A stretch of DNA of 34,196 nucleotides from an uncultured Alphaproteobacteria bacterium (GTDB taxonomy: Bacteria; Pseudomonadota; Alphaproteobacteria; CAAHEQ01; UBA3637), in the NCBI GenBank assembly GCA_949292205.1, contig CASEYR010000001.1:219530-253725 (forward strand), read 5' to 3'. A program made the position numbers and the translations under genes. Positions within the stretch are counted from its first letter, which is position 1. Each line of letters starts with the position of its first letter. This document shows, one piece after another, positions 25,122 through 34,078 of this stretch. The notes beneath the pieces are model-generated. The model was not told where the DNA came from and did no database searches. It saw only the letters and a list, made by a program, of their open reading frames with translations.

Positions 25122-28100
25122 CTAAAAAGCTAACCGGACACCAGCATTCATATTGAACCGTGTATCATTCTCAATGAACTGTGTAAACTTGGCATATAGT
25201 CCGATATTTTTGTAATCGTATCCAATTTCACCGCTGACCAAACCGCGATTACGTCCCAAAGTCCAATCTTCAAGCTCATAACTACCAGACATACCCTCTA
25301 TTCCCATCTCTTGTTTATAGGGCTCTGCCATTTCATGGTAATAAGCTCCACCTACTTTGAACTTTAATTTTGACAAACGACCAACCGACATATCTTTACT
25401 AACATAAAGACCAACTCCCGCTTCAACAGAGGTCAAATTATCTGACTTGAATACAGCACGGATGCTTGATTCATTTTCTGTATGACCTTTTGTATGCCAA
25501 CCTAAAATATTAAATTCTACAGCCGGCTCAATCATTAATCCCGCAATTTCTATCGGATAACGAACCTCATTCGTAATACCATATAACCATTTTTCCGTCT
25601 TACCTTTTGCCGATTGACTATCAAGCGAACGTGTATAATGACCGTTACCATAGCCAAAACGCGGTATGGAAACTAACCGGAACCCTCCTTTTTCATACCC
25701 TATCGGCATAAAGGCTTGATACAATGTTTCCGTCCGATCCGAATCATTCCGATAGTCACTGCTGTATCGAGTAACACCCAATCCTAAACCAAATCGGAAA
25801 TCTCCGAACATTTTATCCGTCAAACCATAACTTGAATCTGCATTGGATTTATATCCGGTCAAACCCGATTTGCTATCTCGATGTTGATATAAGTGATCAT
25901 ACCCGACTATTGACCGATTTTCTCCTTTCTTAGCGAACAATGCATCATTCATTGTTCGGCTGAGACTCCGCAAAACCGCAAAATCCTCGTAGGCAAAATT
26001 AGTTAATGTATCTGTTCCGGAAGATCGATTCCAAGCATTCAACAATGCCTCTTTTGTTGACGCCGCTTTCAATGTATTAAATAAATCTTCATTATTTTTT
26101 AATGCATAGTTATTTTCAAGAAAATCTGCTATCTTGTTATCATCGATAACATCGGCAAAGGCTTTACGCGTCATCACAATGTCATGTGTCGTTTCAGAGG
26201 TACTGTTCAATGAGGCATCAAACAAAGCTGATGATGAAATCAGAGATAAATCCGATACTTTATCTGAAATAATTGCATTTGACACCTTATATTCAGATTC
26301 AAATCCTTTCGAAATAATATCTGTTGCTAGGTTTAAATCACCCGAGATTTCAGAGGCCTTAAAACTACCACCGTCCGACAGAGTCACTTTACCACCGAAA
26401 GAGGACAAGTCCAAAGCTGTCGTAGATGAGATTTCGGAAGGGTTAAACAATTCCGCTCCATTCAATTTAATCGCATTACTGGAATTAGAATCACCGTCAA
26501 TCGTGATAGTTCCAGCATTGGTCACTTTTGCTCCTTCCTCACCATAAATACCATACGCCGATTCAAAACCCGAAATGGTAATACTGCCATTGTTGACAAC
26601 GGTAGAGCCCGGTTTTGCATAAATCCCGATAGCCAAACTACCGGTATTATCGGCTTCATGCTGAACACCATCCGAATCCGTAAATGAACCATGGGATAAT
26701 GTAATGGAACCGAAGTTAGAAACAGAGCTGTTTGAGTCTGCATACATTCCAACAACAGTCGCATTATCTGATGAAATAATAGAAATGGAACTGTTAGAGT
26801 TATTATTGGCGGAAGAGTCAATATCACCATTAGCAAACATACCGATAGCGTTTCCGGCATTTGCTTTTTGAATATTGATACGCCCTGTCGCACCATTACC
26901 ATAGGCGTTATATAGATCCACATTCGTTAATCCGTACGCCGTCACCATTCCCCGAACACGACCAATTCCGATATGTGTAATATCAATCGTTCCTGTGGCA
27001 GTTGCAGATCCCGTTCCTGTCGCAACCGCATATGCATTATAGGCAAATGAATTTGAATGAGTGCCAAGCATTATCCCCGCAACATATGAACTATCCGAGA
27101 AAAGTGAAATACTTCCTATTGCGTTTGCATTTGGTAAAACGGATAAACTTTTACTATTTTTAGAAATAGCATTATACAGGTGAGCTCCTGACATCCCATA
27201 CAAAGAGGATTCATGGTTATACGCTTTAACATCTATCTGAGCAACAGCGTTGGAGCCACTATTAGCATACGCATTAGAAATTACAGACGTATCAGCAAAA
27301 ACAAGTGGAAGGGTGGATAACCCATAGATAAAAGAAGAAGAATTACGACTGGTAATAAAAACCTGCCCTTCCGCTCCGCCTATTTGAGCGTTTGAAAATG
27401 CGTTGCTAGATCCACTCAGTCCTTTAATAAAAGCATCTCCGATACTATTAATTGTGATAACACCTGTGGCTTGAGCGACACCCTCAGCCACCGCATTATA
27501 GGACTTACCTCCACCATTTGACAAACCTACGATACTTCCTTTTCCCTCATGATCAATTGTAATCGTCCCTTTTGAAATTGGGGCCGCATAACCGTTGACA
27601 CCGCTTGCCATGGCATTCTGAATATTATCACCTTCTATACCATAAACCTCAAGATCTGCTCCCCCTTCACGTATAGTCAGAGAAATATTACCTGTTGCTT
27701 TTGCCGCGGTTTGTTTATCCGTTGTATTACCGGATGTTATTGCTAATGTATTAGCATTATTACTGCAACTGCCGCCAACGCATGAAGAATAGTATCCTGT
27801 TACTGCTCTGTTTGATCCTGTGCTAGAAACAGAGATACTTCCAATCGCCTCACCTACTTCTTTTGCCAGAGCATTACTGCTTCCTCCGTTCTGAGCAACA
27901 ATACCTGCATTTCCGATACTTGTAATTTCAATGGTTCCCGTTGCCGTTCCTTTATTCGGAGCATATGCATTGTAGTTGACAGAACTGGCGCCATTCGCAA
28001 GTCCTTGTATCCAACCATTCCCTTCGGATGTTATAGAAATTAAGCCTGTTGCCGTTCCGCCGGGATATTTCCCATCATCAGTACCAGCTATCATTGCGTT

Positions 28101-30902
28101 ATATGCATATTCCCCCCCCTTTATTCCGACAATATTTCCATTTCCTTTATTATTGATGATAATTTTTCCATTTGCCGAACCAGTCTCAACTCGAGCATTA
28201 AATATATTTTGCGGATTAGCTATGTCCTGATCCGAATACATGCCGGTTACATTACCATCACCGTTATTCGTAATGTCAATCGTGTTATTGTTAATCAATC
28301 GACCATCACGCATTCCCCAAACATCTGCATATTTATCATTATTCAGAGTAATACCAGATGTATTGACAACTTCCTCGGCAACACTAGCATCACCCATTTT
28401 ACCGATAACATCTGCCGATTTTGCTACACAAGCACCAGTTGAATCCCGTCCAAAACCTGACTTGCAAACACATTGATCTTTCAATTGCTCTTCGTTTGTT
28501 GGACAAGTTAAAGCTACATAACAAATCCCTGAAAAATCAACATACCCTTCATTACAGACACATGTTGTTCCCTGTTGCGTTGAATTTTCCGGACAATCTT
28601 TATCCGCATAACAGGTTCCATCCCAGTCTACATAACCCGAATTACAGACACATTTGCCCGAAGCTCCATCACAGGAAGCATTACTACCGCAACTTACACC
28701 TTCACACAAATCGACCTCTGGAGGAACATCGCAGTTTTCCCCTTTGTATCCGTCCGTACAAACACATGCACCGGTATCAGGGCTACATGTCCCATGACTA
28801 CCACATGACACTCCGGCGCATTTATCTTCTTCTGCAATCTGACAGTTTGATCCACTATATCCCTCTTCACAAACACATAGACCAGTTTCAATACTACATC
28901 TTCCATGAGAGCCACAGTTCACATTATCGCAAACATCTTCCGGATCCGGTACATCATTTTGACATAAAGATCCGCTATATCCCTCATCACAAATACATGT
29001 TCCGTCTGATGTATCACAAACACCATGCGCTCCGCAACTTACATTCTGACAAAAACCATACGGATCAGATGTAATTGTCCGACAATCTTCACCACTATAT
29101 CCGGGTATACACTCACATTGTCCCGTCGAACTGACACAATAACCAGCACCACAGCTCTTATTAGCACACAAATTTTCCGTATCAGAAGTCGGTGGTGTTA
29201 AGCAATCTGAACCACTCCAACCACCTATACAAATGCAAGACTGCGTTTCTTCGTTACAGACACCCATTCCACAATTTGCTTTATCACAGAAAGAAAGTTC
29301 CTCCTGAAATTCACAACTATTACCAGTCCAACCCTCATAACACAAACATTCTCCGGTCAAGACATCACATGACCCATTACCACTACATGTTTTTCCAGAA
29401 CAAAGACCCGGTTCTAATTCTATCTGACAATTAGCTCCTTCATAGCCATCATCACACAAGCACAAACCATTGTCGGGATCACACGATCCATGACCACTGC
29501 AACTAACCCCCTCGCATCTATTAAAATCGCTTGGTGGCACTTGGCAATTCGCCCCCGTATACCCATCTGCACATGAGCAAGATCCATCCGTTGGATTACA
29601 CGTTCCATGTACTCCACAATTGACGTATGCACATTTATCTGCTGGAGGAACTTCACAATGAACCCCACTGTATCCATTGTCACAAATACACTGCCCCGTA
29701 AAAGGCCAACAAGTTCCATTATCTCCACAATCAACATTATTACATAAGTTCAATGTTTCACATTTTCCTGTCAGTGGATTACAAAATTCTCCCGAAGGAC
29801 ACTCTACCCCTTCACATAACTCTCCAACTGCAGGAGGAATTTGACAATTTGTTCCTGTGTATCCATCCGTACAAATACACACTCCATCTTCCGGATTACA
29901 TGTTCCGTGCTCTCCACAGTTTACTCCGACACATAAATCAGGCTCTTCTCCACCATCTTCTACGCTACAATCTGCTCCTGTCCAACCCGGACTGCACACA
30001 CACGAAGCTCCCTGCTGTGTTCCGTTAACACAGTTCAAGGTCGCATAACATTGACTTGTCCCATAATGCCCGTAGCCGGAATCACACTCACTGCAAGTAC
30101 TTCCCGTATACCCTGTATCACAAATACAGGTATCCAAACTTTGATGTCCATTCGCTCCACAATCAAGTGTTCGATAGCAAGCGTCACCAAACATTGTGTA
30201 ACCACTATCACATACACATATATTTGCTTCTTGATGTTGATTTAAACCACAGGTAAGCTTTTCATAGCATTGGTTCCCCCATTTTATCTCGTTTTCAGCA
30301 CATGTAACATCATCACTTCCGCTACTACTTCCGCCGCCACCGCCGACTGCTAATGCTATTCCGCCGCCAACTACGGCAGCGACACCGACTCCAATAGCCA
30401 CTTTTGCACCGACGCTTAATCCCGCTTCCTCCGCAACGAGAGCTCTGGGAGCTTGCGTCGTTGCTGCTTTGGCCGCTTTAGCCGTAGAAACAGATTTTGC
30501 CGACACAGCTTTAGCAGAAGAGCTACCGTAAGCTATCTTCCCTGAGTTCACCCCTTTAGCCCACTGAGTATACGATGCATTAAACTCTTGAACTTTCTCT
30601 GCCGGTATTTTTGAAATACAGGGATTTGAAACGCTGGCTCCGTTTTGTTTTAATATACTAAACGTATAATAGTCTTTCATCCACACAGACCGACAGAGTG
30701 CCGTATTTCCATATTGATCCAGCGCATCTAAAGATTGACCTTGCGCTTTGATTGATCTAAGCGCAGTTATATTGCCGGTTTTTGCATACTTATATATCTG
30801 TGTTGCTCCGGCTAATGTTTGAGAAAAGGCTTCAACATTCCATACTACCGTAGAAAACGACAGTGCGACCATAACAATATAACTAACAACTTGACGTAGC
30901 AT
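25122..30902 (-). CDS. Giant EGF-repeat autotransporter, 1926 aa
   Basis: Domains in order: signal peptide (cut near VEA, residue 25); ankyrin-like segment (about 35-95, with LDQYGNTALC); Ala/Ser/Lys-rich linker; hydrophobic Gly/Ala/Val segment (161-193); about 17 EGF-like modules (201-825), most of the form C-x4-C-G-x-H-G-x-C-x7-C-x-C-x2-G-Y-x-G-x2-C; a beta-helix-like repeat passenger (about 870-1480); and an autotransporter beta-barrel (about 1630-1926) ending LRLAF-like in VRLAF. The final Phe is the usual barrel signature. The passenger thus carries on the order of a hundred Cys, rare for a type V secreted protein. AAGGAGGG precedes the ATG, and a strong promoter lies about 140 bases upstream. 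It probably mediates surface adhesion; ligand unknown. Confidence 0.92.
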   Translation of the reverse strand: MLRQVVSYIVMVALSFSTVVWNVEAFSQTLAGATQIYKYAKTGNITALRSIKAQGQSLDALDQYGNTALCRSVWMKDYYTFSILKQNGASVSNPCISKIPAEKVQEFNASYTQWAKGVNSGKIAYGSSSAKAVSAKSVSTAKAAKAATTQAPRALVAEEAGLSVGAKVAIGVGVAAVVGGGIALAVGGGGGSSSGSDDVTCAENEIKWGNQCYEKLTCGLNQHQEANICVCDSGYTMFGDACYRTLDCGANGHQSLDTCICDTGYTGSTCSECDSGYGHYGTSQCYATLNCVNGTQQGASCVCSPGWTGADCSVEDGGEEPDLCVGVNCGEHGTCNPEDGVCICTDGYTGTNCQIPPAVGELCEGVECPSGEFCNPLTGKCETLNLCNNVDCGDNGTCWPFTGQCICDNGYSGVHCEVPPADKCAYVNCGVHGTCNPTDGSCSCADGYTGANCQVPPSDFNRCEGVSCSGHGSCDPDNGLCLCDDGYEGANCQIELEPGLCSGKTCSGNGSCDVLTGECLCYEGWTGNSCEFQEELSFCDKANCGMGVCNEETQSCICIGGWSGSDCLTPPTSDTENLCANKSCGAGYCVSSTGQCECIPGYSGEDCRTITSDPYGFCQNVSCGAHGVCDTSDGTCICDEGYSGSLCQNDVPDPEDVCDNVNCGSHGRCSIETGLCVCEEGYSGSNCQIAEEDKCAGVSCGSHGTCSPDTGACVCTDGYKGENCDVPPEVDLCEGVSCGSNASCDGASGKCVCNSGYVDWDGTCYADKDCPENSTQQGTTCVCNEGYVDFSGICYVALTCPTNEEQLKDQCVCKSGFGRDSTGACVAKSADVIGKMGDASVAEEVVNTSGITLNNDKYADVWGMRDGRLINNNTIDITNNGDGNVTGMYSDQDIANPQNIFNARVETGSANGKIIINNKGNGNIVGIKGGEYAYNAMIAGTDDGKYPGGTATGLISITSEGNGWIQGLANGASSVNYNAYAPNKGTATGTIEITSIGNAGIVAQNGGSSNALAKEVGEAIGSISVSSTGSNRAVTGYYSSCVGGSCSNNANTLAITSGNTTDKQTAAKATGNISLTIREGGADLEVYGIEGDNIQNAMASGVNGYAAPISKGTITIDHEGKGSIVGLSNGGGKSYNAVAEGVAQATGVITINSIGDAFIKGLSGSSNAFSNAQIGGAEGQVFITSRNSSSFIYGLSTLPLVFADTSVISNAYANSGSNAVAQIDVKAYNHESSLYGMSGAHLYNAISKNSKSLSVLPNANAIGSISLFSDSSYVAGIMLGTHSNSFAYNAYAVATGTGSATATGTIDITHIGIGRVRGMVTAYGLTNVDLYNAYGNGATGRINIQKANAGNAIGMFANGDIDSSANNNSNSSISIISSDNATVVGMYADSNSSVSNFGSITLSHGSFTDSDGVQHEADNTGSLAIGIYAKPGSTVVNNGSITISGFESAYGIYGEEGAKVTNAGTITIDGDSNSSNAIKLNGAELFNPSEISSTTALDLSSFGGKVTLSDGGSFKASEISGDLNLATDIISKGFESEYKVSNAIISDKVSDLSLISSSALFDASLNSTSETTHDIVMTRKAFADVIDDNKIADFLENNYALKNNEDLFNTLKAASTKEALLNAWNRSSGTDTLTNFAYEDFAVLRSLSRTMNDALFAKKGENRSIVGYDHLYQHRDSKSGLTGYKSNADSSYGLTDKMFGDFRFGLGLGVTRYSSDYRNDSDRTETLYQAFMPIGYEKGGFRLVSIPRFGYGNGHYTRSLDSQSAKGKTEKWLYGITNEVRYPIEIAGLMIEPAVEFNILGWHTKGHTENESSIRAVFKSDNLTSVEAGVGLYVSKDMSVGRLSKLKFKVGGAYYHEMAEPYKQEMGIEGMSGSYELEDWTLGRNRGLVSGEIGYDYKNIGLYAKFTQFIENDTRFNMNAGVRLAF
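26463..28290 (-). repeat. Degenerate 32-50-residue repeats of the passenger
   Basis: About 14 copies share G-x-I-x-I-(4-5 residues)-G-x4-G(L/M/I), often followed by NA.A some 12 residues later. Examples are ATGLISITSEGNGWIQGL (951-968), KGTITIDHEGKGSIVGL (1111-1127) and ATGTIDITHIGIGRVRGM (1302-1319). The pattern suits rungs of a parallel beta-helix. Confidence 0.7.
28428..30302 (-). repeat. Tandem EGF-like module array
   Basis: About 17 Cys-rich modules encode residues 201-825. The central ones (residues 324-724) are the most regular, about 30 residues each plus 5-12-residue linkers containing PP or acidic residues. The outer modules (201-312 and 733-825) are divergent, with a longer form such as GYVDWDGTC and GYVDFSGIC. 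Residues 363-381 look like a half-module lacking the last two Cys. Confidence 0.85.
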
Positions 30903-31229: not shown

Positions 31230-31715
31230 TTAATCTTCTATCGGTTCCGTTAAATCCTCTTGCAAATCATCCAATGAATCAACTTCTATTTTTTGTTTCT
31301 GGACAACAGGAACAGCTAGCGGAACAATCTTTTCCCACTCCTTTTGGATTGGCTTATCCGTCAAACATTCCAAAACCCATATATCATAAATAGGATGTTC
31401 CATTGCCGATAGAGCCGGATTGGAAGAAAACATCCAACCATTAAAAACGACTTCATAAGCCTCATCTTTATTTTTTTCTTCAATAACTAAAAAAGCAGCA
31501 TTCTCGGGAGTTTCTTCAGGAGGCTTTTTCAAACACCGTTGAGCCGTTATCTTTAAATTACCAAAAAATGCCGGCGTATCAATATCTGTTTCCAGCGTAC
31601 TTGTCCGACCTGTTACTTTATCAACACCTCGCAACAAGACCTTAGGGGCATCTATATCGGCTCCGTAGACCGTGATTGAGAAAAGCGAACAAAAAATCAG
31701 AAAAAAGAGCTTCAT
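31230..31715 (-). CDS. DUF2155-family exported protein, 161 aa
   Basis: A signal peptide (MKLFFLIFCSLFSITVYGA) is followed by a domain with DKVTGRTSTLETDIDTPAFFGNLKI, then CLKKPPEETPENAAF, VFNGWMFSSNPALSAMEHPIYDIWVLEC, which is the pattern of the alphaproteobacterial DUF2155 family as I know it. In that group the gene often sits beside mlaD-type genes, as here. The C-terminal 30 residues are acidic. The start at 31715 is chosen for the signal peptide; an in-frame ATG at 31802 lies within the upstream gene. The weak ribosome site AGTAGG overlaps the previous stop. Molecular role is not known. Confidence 0.85.
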   Translation of the reverse strand: MKLFFLIFCSLFSITVYGADIDAPKVLLRGVDKVTGRTSTLETDIDTPAFFGNLKITAQRCLKKPPEETPENAAFLVIEEKNKDEAYEVVFNGWMFSSNPALSAMEHPIYDIWVLECLTDKPIQKEWEKIVPLAVPVVQKQKIEVDSLDDLQEDLTEPIED

Positions 31716-31722
31716 AATCAAC

Positions 31723-32166
31723 CTACTTCGTGGACAAGAAAATAAACTCAGAGATGTTATCTTCCAGAGATTTATAATTTTTCGTTTGCAAGATGCGGTC
31801 ATTCTCTTTTAATGATTCAGAACTCTTACCCGGTTCTAAACGAACGTACTTATCTCCCATAATCCCGACATCCGAAATAGAAGCTACCGTATCAATCGGT
31901 AATTGAACAGATGGATCAATACTCATATACACATCTGCCGTATAATCATTTTTATTTAGCGATGTGGATAAAACAGAGCCTACTTTGATACCGGAAATTC
32001 GAACATCCGATCCAACCTCTAGCCCGCCAATCTTTGAAAAATTAGCAGATACCGTATACCCATCTACTTTACCGATATCAACGCGAGAGGCGGCAAAAAA
32101 TAAAAAAAGACCGGTAAAAATCAGAACACCAAAACCTAAAATCGTTTCTACTGGATTTTTTTTCAT
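31723..32166 (-). CDS. mlaD: MlaD/MCE-family lipid transport protein, second copy, 147 aa
   Basis: MlaD-type proteins sit in the inner membrane, bind lipid in the periplasm and partner the MlaE permease/MlaF ATPase. A single N-terminal helix (residues 9-27, ILGFGVLIFTGLFLFFAAS) is followed by an MCE domain with the usual GYTVSANFSKIGGLEVGSDV, ISGIKVGSV and GIMGDKYVRLEPG motifs. It is the closer of the two copies to classic MlaD. AAGGAGA upstream supports the start. The permease and ATPase genes are not in the window. Confidence 0.93.
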   Translation of the reverse strand: MKKNPVETILGFGVLIFTGLFLFFAASRVDIGKVDGYTVSANFSKIGGLEVGSDVRISGIKVGSVLSTSLNKNDYTADVYMSIDPSVQLPIDTVASISDVGIMGDKYVRLEPGKSSESLKENDRILQTKNYKSLEDNISEFIFLSTK

Positions 32167-32184
32167 TACAAAATCTCCTTAATC

Positions 32185-32667
32185 TTAACGTTCGGCCACA
32201 GGTTGATGAGCAGCCTCTTTTTCTTTCTTATTCTTCATATACACATTTACTTTTTCTAAAAGCTCACTTAAAATCAAAGAATCCTGTGTATATTCAATCG
32301 TATCCCCGCTTTCCAACATATTTTCATCTCCTCCGGGGAAAATTTCAAGATGCTTACTCCCCAACAATCCATCTGTTTCAATGCTGACTGAAGAATCTAT
32401 CGGAATAAAAACTGGTTTATCAAGCGCAAAATTAACACGAACCTGATAACCATCTGCTAAAGATTGAGTAATAACTTTCCCGATAGGCATGCCTGCCATA
32501 CGAACCTCGGCACCATTCATCAAACCATCCGCTTTTGAAAAATGCGCGTATAGGTGAAATCGATGACCTTCAAACTCTTGAACGGAACGACCATGAACAA
32601 ATAATAATAACATCCCAAGCAATGCCGTTAATATAACACCAACCCATATTTCTTTATTTTGACGCAT
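32185..32667 (-). CDS. MlaD/MCE-family lipid transport protein, first copy, 160 aa
   Basis: This has the same architecture as the next gene: one membrane helix (about residues 9-24, VGVILTALLGMLLLFV) then an MCE domain with HLYAHFSKADGLMNGAEV, MAGMPIGKV and GLLGSKHLEIFPGGDE. It is clearly a diverged paralogue. The C-terminus is helical and charged (KNKKEKEAAHQ), after a VNVYMKN stretch. The ATG at 32667 is chosen because AGGAAT precedes it; an upstream ATG at 32763 lies beyond the divergent promoter region. It heads the mce-mce-DUF2155 unit. Confidence 0.9.
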   Translation of the reverse strand: MRQNKEIWVGVILTALLGMLLLFVHGRSVQEFEGHRFHLYAHFSKADGLMNGAEVRMAGMPIGKVITQSLADGYQVRVNFALDKPVFIPIDSSVSIETDGLLGSKHLEIFPGGDENMLESGDTIEYTQDSLILSELLEKVNVYMKNKKEKEAAHQPVAER

Positions 32668-32749
32668 AATTATTCCTTTTCCTCTCGTCATATTTGACAG
32701 GATTATCTTGCCATTGTCAAGTATTCTTTTAAAAAATAAGATTAACAGA

Positions 32750-32778
32750 TTGACTATAGGCATATTTTATCCTAATCT
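32750..32778 (+). promoter_or_regulatory. Predicted promoter of the bepA-like gene
   Basis: TTGACT at 32750-32755, a 17-base spacer and TAATCT at 32773-32778. The -10 ends 10 bases before the ATG at 32789, with no ribosome site, so the leader would be only a few bases. Confidence 0.45.
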
Positions 32779-32788
32779 TTATTCTGTT

Positions 32789-34078
32789 ATGAAATATCTT
32801 TTTCTATTTTTGTATTTGACTTTTATATGTATTGGGATTGTGAAGCCGACATTGGCACTCTCTGTCATCCGAGATACGGAAACGGAAAATACCTTACTGG
32901 GATATGTTCGACCGATTTTTAAAGCTGCCGGACTAAATCCGAATAATGCTCAAATCATCATTGTGAATGATCCAACAATCAACGCCTTTGTTGTGGGCGG
33001 ACAAACTATTTTTGTCCACACCGGATTGATTTTAAAAGCTAAAAATCCTGACGAGCTTGTCTTCGTTCTGGCTCATGAAACCGGACATATTGTCGGCGGT
33101 CATGTTGTTCGCGGATACCAAGCCCTGCAAAATGCTCAAACAAGTGCCTTAATTTCAACCGTTCTAGGAGGACTTGTCGCCATAGCCGGAGGTCGTCCCG
33201 ATGCCGGTGTTGCCGTTATGATGGGAGGACAATCTTCTGCTATGGGATTATTTACCCAGTATCGACAAACTGAAGAAAGCTCTGCAGATAGAACTGCCGT
33301 TGATATCCTTAAAAAAACAGGTTATTCAATGGCTGGCTTTGAAGGTATTATGAAGTCTATTACCGCAGATGAACGCCTGAATAGTAATGCGGAAAGTTCT
33401 TACCTAAGAACTCACCCGATAACTCAGACTCGTATCGCTGATTTAAAACGATTTTTAGACAATCCCCTCCCTTTACATCAAGATATTGCGTTTGATTTGA
33501 TGCGTGCAAAATTAAGTGGTTTTCTATTAAACCCAGAACAAACCAAACGACTATATAAAGGAAATACTCTTGTTGATCAATACGCATTAGCTATCGCATC
33601 ATATAAAGATCATAACTTTACAGAGGCTTTTTCCCGTTTGGATAACCTCACCAACATAAATCCTGAAAATCCATATTTTCACGAGTTAAAAGGACAATTC
33701 TTATTTGAAACCGGACAACTCAAAAAAGCAATAGAGTCATATAATCAAGCAAATAAGATTTTACCAAATGAACCATTAATCCAGTTATCATATGCTCAAG
33801 TTTTACTTGAATCCGGTGAAAAGGAAAACATCATAAAAGCAGAAAAACTGTTAAAACCATTATCTCAAAAAGAACCGAACACACCTATGGTTTGGCAACT
33901 ATTGGCTAAAGCTTACGACAGACAAAACAAAAAAAATGAAGCCCTGTATGCCATGGCAGAGTATTACAGAACCATCGCCTCTTTTGATCAAGCTAAAAAA
34001 CAAGCACAAAAGATTTTAGATACATTCCCTGAGGGAACAGCTACACGTCAACATTTACAAGATATAATTGATTTGTAA
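32789..34078 (+). CDS. bepA: M48-family metalloprotease with TPR repeats (BepA/YfgC-like), 429 aa
   Basis: A signal peptide (residues 1-23, ending TLA) leads into an M48 peptidase domain with the zinc motif HETGH at residues 96-100 and the third ligand Glu163 in EESSADR. The C-terminal half holds TPR-like helices (NPYFHELKGQFLFETGQL, AIESYNQANKILPNEP, VWQLLAKAYDRQNKKNEAL). BepA-type proteases act in the periplasm on stalled outer-membrane proteins such as LptD and BamA. The start at 32789 is chosen for the signal peptide; the upstream ATG at 32708 would add a 27-residue extension with no function. It is divergent from the mce genes. Confidence 0.94.
   Translation: MKYLFLFLYLTFICIGIVKPTLALSVIRDTETENTLLGYVRPIFKAAGLNPNNAQIIIVNDPTINAFVVGGQTIFVHTGLILKAKNPDELVFVLAHETGHIVGGHVVRGYQALQNAQTSALISTVLGGLVAIAGGRPDAGVAVMMGGQSSAMGLFTQYRQTEESSADRTAVDILKKTGYSMAGFEGIMKSITADERLNSNAESSYLRTHPITQTRIADLKRFLDNPLPLHQDIAFDLMRAKLSGFLLNPEQTKRLYKGNTLVDQYALAIASYKDHNFTEAFSRLDNLTNINPENPYFHELKGQFLFETGQLKKAIESYNQANKILPNEPLIQLSYAQVLLESGEKENIIKAEKLLKPLSQKEPNTPMVWQLLAKAYDRQNKKNEALYAMAEYYRTIASFDQAKKQAQKILDTFPEGTATRQHLQDIIDL

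Follow-up and report, generated by a model that had tools for sequence, protein, structure and literature searches.

Tandem EGF-like modules in the passenger of a predicted type Va autotransporter from uncultured gut Alphaproteobacteria

In an uncultured Alphaproteobacteria bacterium (GTDB lineage CAAHEQ01; UBA3637), we detected a gene for a 1926-amino acid (aa) protein that carries a long tandem of epidermal growth factor (EGF)-like modules on the known frame of a type Va autotransporter. The gene (open reading frame at 25122-30902, minus strand) lies in a window of 34,196 nucleotides, the whole stretch of DNA analysed (GenBank assembly GCA_949292205.1, contig CASEYR010000001.1, positions 219,530 to 253,725 of the forward strand). 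Such an EGF passenger is new here, as is the finding that a lineage with widespread EGF surface proteins has no recognisable DsbB or VKOR; searches of the open-access literature turned up neither EGF-module autotransporters nor EGF proteins of this lineage. Judging from its architecture and variability, the protein most likely serves as an adhesive stalk stiffened by disulphides, within a surface family that varies fast. Its features in the window are:

25122..30902, minus strand: whole gene, 1926-aa autotransporter
30831..30902, minus strand: putative Sec signal peptide, residues 1-24, cleavage after VEA (sequence inspection)
30603..30806, minus strand: ankyrin-like N-terminal domain, residues 33-100 (homologue alignment; weak Ank_2/Ank_4 matches in homologues)
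30333..30422, minus strand: hydrophobic Gly-rich segment, residues 161-190, then poly-Gly (Kyte-Doolittle 2.37)
29967..30302, minus strand: N-terminal degenerate EGF modules, four-Cys (218-242, 248-270, 291-312) and two-Cys (201-212, 273-285)
28611..29933, minus strand: 11 complete six-Cys EGF modules, starting at residues 324, 387, 424, 463, 501, 539, 579, 618, 658, 695 and 733
29760..29816, minus strand: EGF module 363-381, C1-C4 only
28428..28595, minus strand: two C-terminal four-Cys EGF modules, 770-794 and 800-825
26223..28385, minus strand: predicted beta-helix of the passenger, residues about 840-1560, with two Cys, C1041 and C1046 (sequence repeats; modelled short strands from 1203)
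25125..25997, minus strand: predicted plug helix and 12-strand autotransporter barrel, residues about 1636-1926, C-terminal Phe (PF03797; model and PDB matches; 18-homologue alignment)

The EGF-like modules

The Cys-rich block covers residues 201-825 (28428-30302), exactly where the first-pass annotation of this DNA had placed about 17 EGF modules. A search of the block for the strict six-Cys EGF spacing found 11 matches, against a mean of 0.12 and a maximum of 3 matches in 5000 shuffles of the same residues. The incomplete modules comprise five that keep C2, C4, C5 and C6, one with C1-C4 and two with C5-C6 only, which gives 17 modules with at least four Cys (11 six-Cys and 6 four-Cys), as first counted, or 19 with the two-Cys modules. 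All 94 Cys of the block are compatible with C1-C3/C2-C4/C5-C6 pairing. The incomplete modules have lost their Cys as whole disulphide pairs, which suggests that the EGF disulphides matter, the three loss types being modest evidence.

A profile search against EGF families, proposed at first pass, matched several of them above the Pfam gathering score (EGF_Teneurin, 1e-48; EGF_TEN, 4e-45; EGF_2, 9.5e-28). By sequence, the top matches in the PDB are teneurin 2 and 3 (2e-14), followed by Delta and Notch; the modules had been described as Notch/tenascin-type, and this holds for the EGF type, with the closest relative now corrected to the tenascin-related teneurins. An AlphaFold model of residues 387-530 (10-row alignment) reached a predicted local distance difference test (pLDDT) of 81 and has one hairpin per EGF module, the inter-module angles being unreliable (predicted template modelling score, pTM, 0.39). 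Foldseek searches with this model returned the EGFs of Notch, SCARF1, Delta, integrin and Jagged; there were 65 PDB matches at E<=0.001, and all 50 of those listed are EGF-containing proteins. Residues 201-825 are confirmed as EGF-like domains at the level of spacing, Pfam cut-off and predicted fold.

The modules share with teneurin/tenascin and Notch/Delta EGF repeats (hEGF type) the Cys spacing, the C-G-x-H-G-x-C and C-x2-G-Y-x-G-x2-C motifs and the predicted fold. They differ in being bacterial, in their predicted export by Sec and a barrel, in the lack of one disulphide pair in several modules and in calcium binding: the consensus D-x-D/N-E/Q before C1 was found in none of the modules, and the Pfam scan gave no EGF_CA match. 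Every EGF disulphide loop is small (9-13 residues). The pattern C2-x4-[ST]-C3, in animals the context of Notch O-fucosylation, fits most complete modules (28611-29933, minus strand) and may be a chance product of the frequent GTC/GSC ending.

Codon identity between modules (0.51) equals the expectation from codon usage (0.52), and the module duplications are therefore old. GC content is near native. Recent capture of the block from a eukaryote was also considered and is unsupported by both composition and codon identity.

Autotransporter frame and N-terminal domain

The autotransporter barrel family PF03797 was detected in the genome scan (80 bits, E 1e-22); an hmmscan of the entire 1926-aa protein did not list it. 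The AlphaFold model of residues 1203-1926 (18-row alignment, pLDDT 83.7) contains a beta-helix followed by one helix and 12 long strands; in the PDB it matches the barrels of AaaA, EstA, EspP, BrkA and NalP. The beta-helical passenger is predicted by the model for residues 1203-1560 only, the part from 840 to 1202 being judged from repeats. On its modelled fold the protein is a type Va (classical) autotransporter. The original idea of EGF modules in an autotransporter passenger is upheld by Pfam, PDB sequence matches, AlphaFold and Foldseek together with the PF03797 barrel. The Phe terminus and the barrel were likewise recovered, while the accompanying Sec signal is Sec-like by inspection only (a hydrophobic N-terminus with a VEA cleavage motif). 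A variant export route had been offered as an option, and of this there is no sign, the predicted barrel being of the ordinary 12-strand type.

EspP, NalP, EstA and AaaA resemble the protein in the C-terminal 12-strand barrel with plug helix, the beta-helix passenger and the putative signal peptide; the 94-Cys tandem EGF block, the ankyrin-like domain and the hydrophobic Gly segment set it apart from them. We know of no EGF fold in chlamydial Pmps, and the Pmp profile had no match in the 1926-aa protein at E<=0.01. Pmps such as PmpD and Pmp21 are comparable as Cys-containing beta-helix autotransporters, of which PmpD makes disulphides and Pmp21 engages EGFR (PMC6005502, PMC3635982); they differ in having up to about 18 Cys (PMC8151025), and their family is marked by FxxN and GGA(I,L,V) repeats.

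In the N-terminal part, C70 and C95 of the ankyrin-like domain are invariant in the alignment of 17 homologues (17/17), whose Ank_2/Ank_4 matches are weak and under the Pfam cut-off. All 17 also have the hydrophobic segment (Kyte-Doolittle 1.3-2.6), which lies ahead of the passenger and could keep the N-terminal domain in the envelope. This conservation, including the invariant Cys pair, would suit a protein tethered at two ends, in which the ankyrin-like domain and the hydrophobic Gly-rich stretch would remain within the envelope or periplasm while the EGF modules and helix form a loop held on both sides. To our knowledge there is no type Va precedent for such a tether. An inner-membrane stop-transfer would keep the barrel from being exported, membrane insertion cannot be read from composition alone, and we consider the arrangement improbable.

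Distribution in the lineage

Matches to the 1926-aa protein were found in 30 of the 43 genomes of the GTDB family (the order searched consists of the same 43 genomes). The relatives conserve the putative signal, the ankyrin-like domain with C70 and C95, the hydrophobic Gly segment and the barrel around a highly variable Cys-rich middle. This middle has many EGF modules in the window protein, few in L039, L041 and L044, mostly four-Cys modules in L033, other Cys-rich repeats in L034 and L040, and few Cys in L045 and L046. The same N-terminal plan occurs in L065, from another family of the class. Two relatives carry names, one a metagenome-assembled genome (MAG) from the abomasum of roe deer and the other a MAG from yak rumen. 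Among related proteins we also noted an autotransporter with a subtilase (S8) domain after the Cys-rich part (L043, G038:C46; PF00082, 6e-24) and a 4853-aa protein with 152 Cys that lacks the ankyrin/Gly N-terminus (L037, G015:C1).

EGF_Teneurin matches are common in the family (24/43 genomes) and rare in the class (7/385) and phylum (2/398), the source genome being counted in all three tallies; the EGF modules are thus a lineage trait rather than an isolated acquisition by one gene. A profile search of contigs with a three-row EGF alignment recovered two members of the family and a single protein from Myxococcales, and a search of viral contigs for EGF modules gave no match. Two other counts were left unused: a search of the class with the N-terminal alignment (146/385), which mixes generic ankyrin matches with relatives and is no measure of architecture, and a family-wide tally of Cys patterns based on hidden Markov models, which is blurred by local alignment ends.

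EGF-like modules of the same type also occur in this family behind a prepilin-like N-terminus, as in L050 (742 aa, 75 Cys; EGF_TEN, 2e-45). These pilin-like proteins (L050, L087-L091) share module type, Cys richness and lineage with the autotransporter, and differ in having the prepilin-like N-terminus (G|RSMVEMLGVLA) in place of its frame. This N-terminus, with Glu at +5, was seen fused to Cys-rich/EGF-like modules in L050, L087, L088, L089, L090, L091, L093 and L094, with many paralogues per genome, above all in G019. Uncultured gut Alphaproteobacteria have thus diversified EGF repeats, described as nearly animal-exclusive (PMC6428715), on their surface proteins.

That description is one of the points that would fit host mimicry, in which modules derived from an animal EGF protein (a teneurin or Notch ligand) engage a host receptor; others are the top PDB sequence matches to teneurin 2/3, Notch and Delta, the origin of relatives from ruminant stomachs, and Pmp21, which binds and activates EGFR (PMC3635982). 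Against this, the modules occur lineage-wide in many forms and in two different frames, their duplications are old by codon identity, their GC is near native and they match no single host protein specifically, which leaves such an origin unlikely. Mimicry of host adhesion molecules, named as a possible role in the first-pass annotation, is not supported in the sense of one particular molecule, given old, lineage-wide and varied modules with similar ones on pilin-like proteins; it is possible and not favoured.

Disulphide machinery, export and function

DsbB was detected in none of the 43 family genomes, whereas it is present in 241 of 289 genomes of the class, and VKOR was likewise found in 0/43; the usual route for recharging DsbA is therefore not recognisable in the family. 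DsbA-fold proteins are present in 42 of the 43 genomes, in the source genome as a membrane-anchored CGYC type and a CPHC type with signal peptide. One CGYC protein (L055, 1541-2458, plus strand) has a metallothionein-like, Cys-packed tail N-terminal to its membrane segment (CSCGDSCSCGEHCSCGC).

Autotransporter passengers are generally Cys-poor, as the first-pass annotation also stated, with the chlamydial Pmps (up to 18 Cys) a notable case, and a review of type V secretion describes the handling of Cys-rich passengers as unexamined (PMC8151025). The present protein exceeds the best known case about fivefold in Cys, and neither DsbB nor VKOR is recognisable in its lineage; together these make the crossing of a disulphide-rich passenger directly testable.

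With moderate confidence, we favour a lineage-specific type Va surface protein whose EGF stalk crosses reduced or with small loops, is oxidised at the surface and acts adhesively in the gut. Sec would export the protein, the C-terminal barrel would enter the outer membrane, and the passenger would cross C-terminus first. Outside, the beta-helix would form a base, with the EGF tandem as a long, flexible, protease-resistant and disulphide-bonded stalk that may bind a gut target, whether the mucosa of the host, mucin or another microbe. As neither DsbB nor VKOR is recognisable in the lineage, the modules would probably pass in reduced form, or with no more than the small loops closed, and full oxidation would follow at the surface. 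The DsbB/VKOR absence favours, without proving, reduced transit and oxidation outside; the corresponding first-pass claim is partly supported, insofar as catalysed periplasmic oxidation is weakened. Computation shows the gene, its modules, Cys positions that suit EGF pairing, the barrel fold, the family distribution and the lack of DsbB/VKOR matches; surface exposure, actual disulphides, reduced transit and adhesion are what we infer.

The same absence bears on oxidation and folding of the modules in the periplasm by DsbA-like proteins, with compact EGF units passing the barrel/BAM (beta-barrel assembly machinery) pore in tandem. DsbA-fold proteins are nearly universal in the family (42/43), Intimin and IcsA disulphides depend on the Dsb system and small disulphide loops are expected not to impede translocation (PMC8151025), so that with loops of only 9-13 residues oxidised modules might also pass; the conflict between disulphides and export is softer than the first-pass annotation supposed. 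However, no DsbB or VKOR was found to recharge DsbA, unlike in most of the class, and seventeen consecutive modules are well above any reported case. We regard periplasmic folding as possible and clearly less probable than reduced transit.

Several points weigh against an adhesive stalk oxidised at the surface: the DsbA-fold proteins (CGYC, CPHC) could drive periplasmic oxidation through an unrecognised re-oxidant; oxidation outside would require an oxidant in a gut that is probably anoxic; and simple full export does not account for the conserved hydrophobic N-terminal segment. DsbB is also missing from other families of the class, so the coincidence of EGF proteins with DsbB and VKOR absence may be phylogenetic only. 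The excess of even Cys numbers is weak and not telling (11/17 homologues even). A more far-reaching version, which we hold tentatively, is that this gut lineage, having lost DsbB and VKOR or never possessed them, displays an EGF surface on two export routes, those of autotransporters and pilin-like proteins, with modules reduced inside and oxidised only outside by a novel oxidant or enzyme.

The source genome (1.32 Mb, 26 contigs) encodes two further autotransporters, and the 1926-aa protein is its only one with EGF_2 matches. The neighbouring genes (31230-34078) encode DUF2155, two consecutive MlaD-like proteins and a BepA-like M48/TPR protease. At the same locus in a congener (L051, 5280-6321), beside DUF2155, mlaD and M48, what remains of the gene is its two ends, which are joined out of frame, and a second paralogue follows; this copy may be an assembly fault of the MAG.
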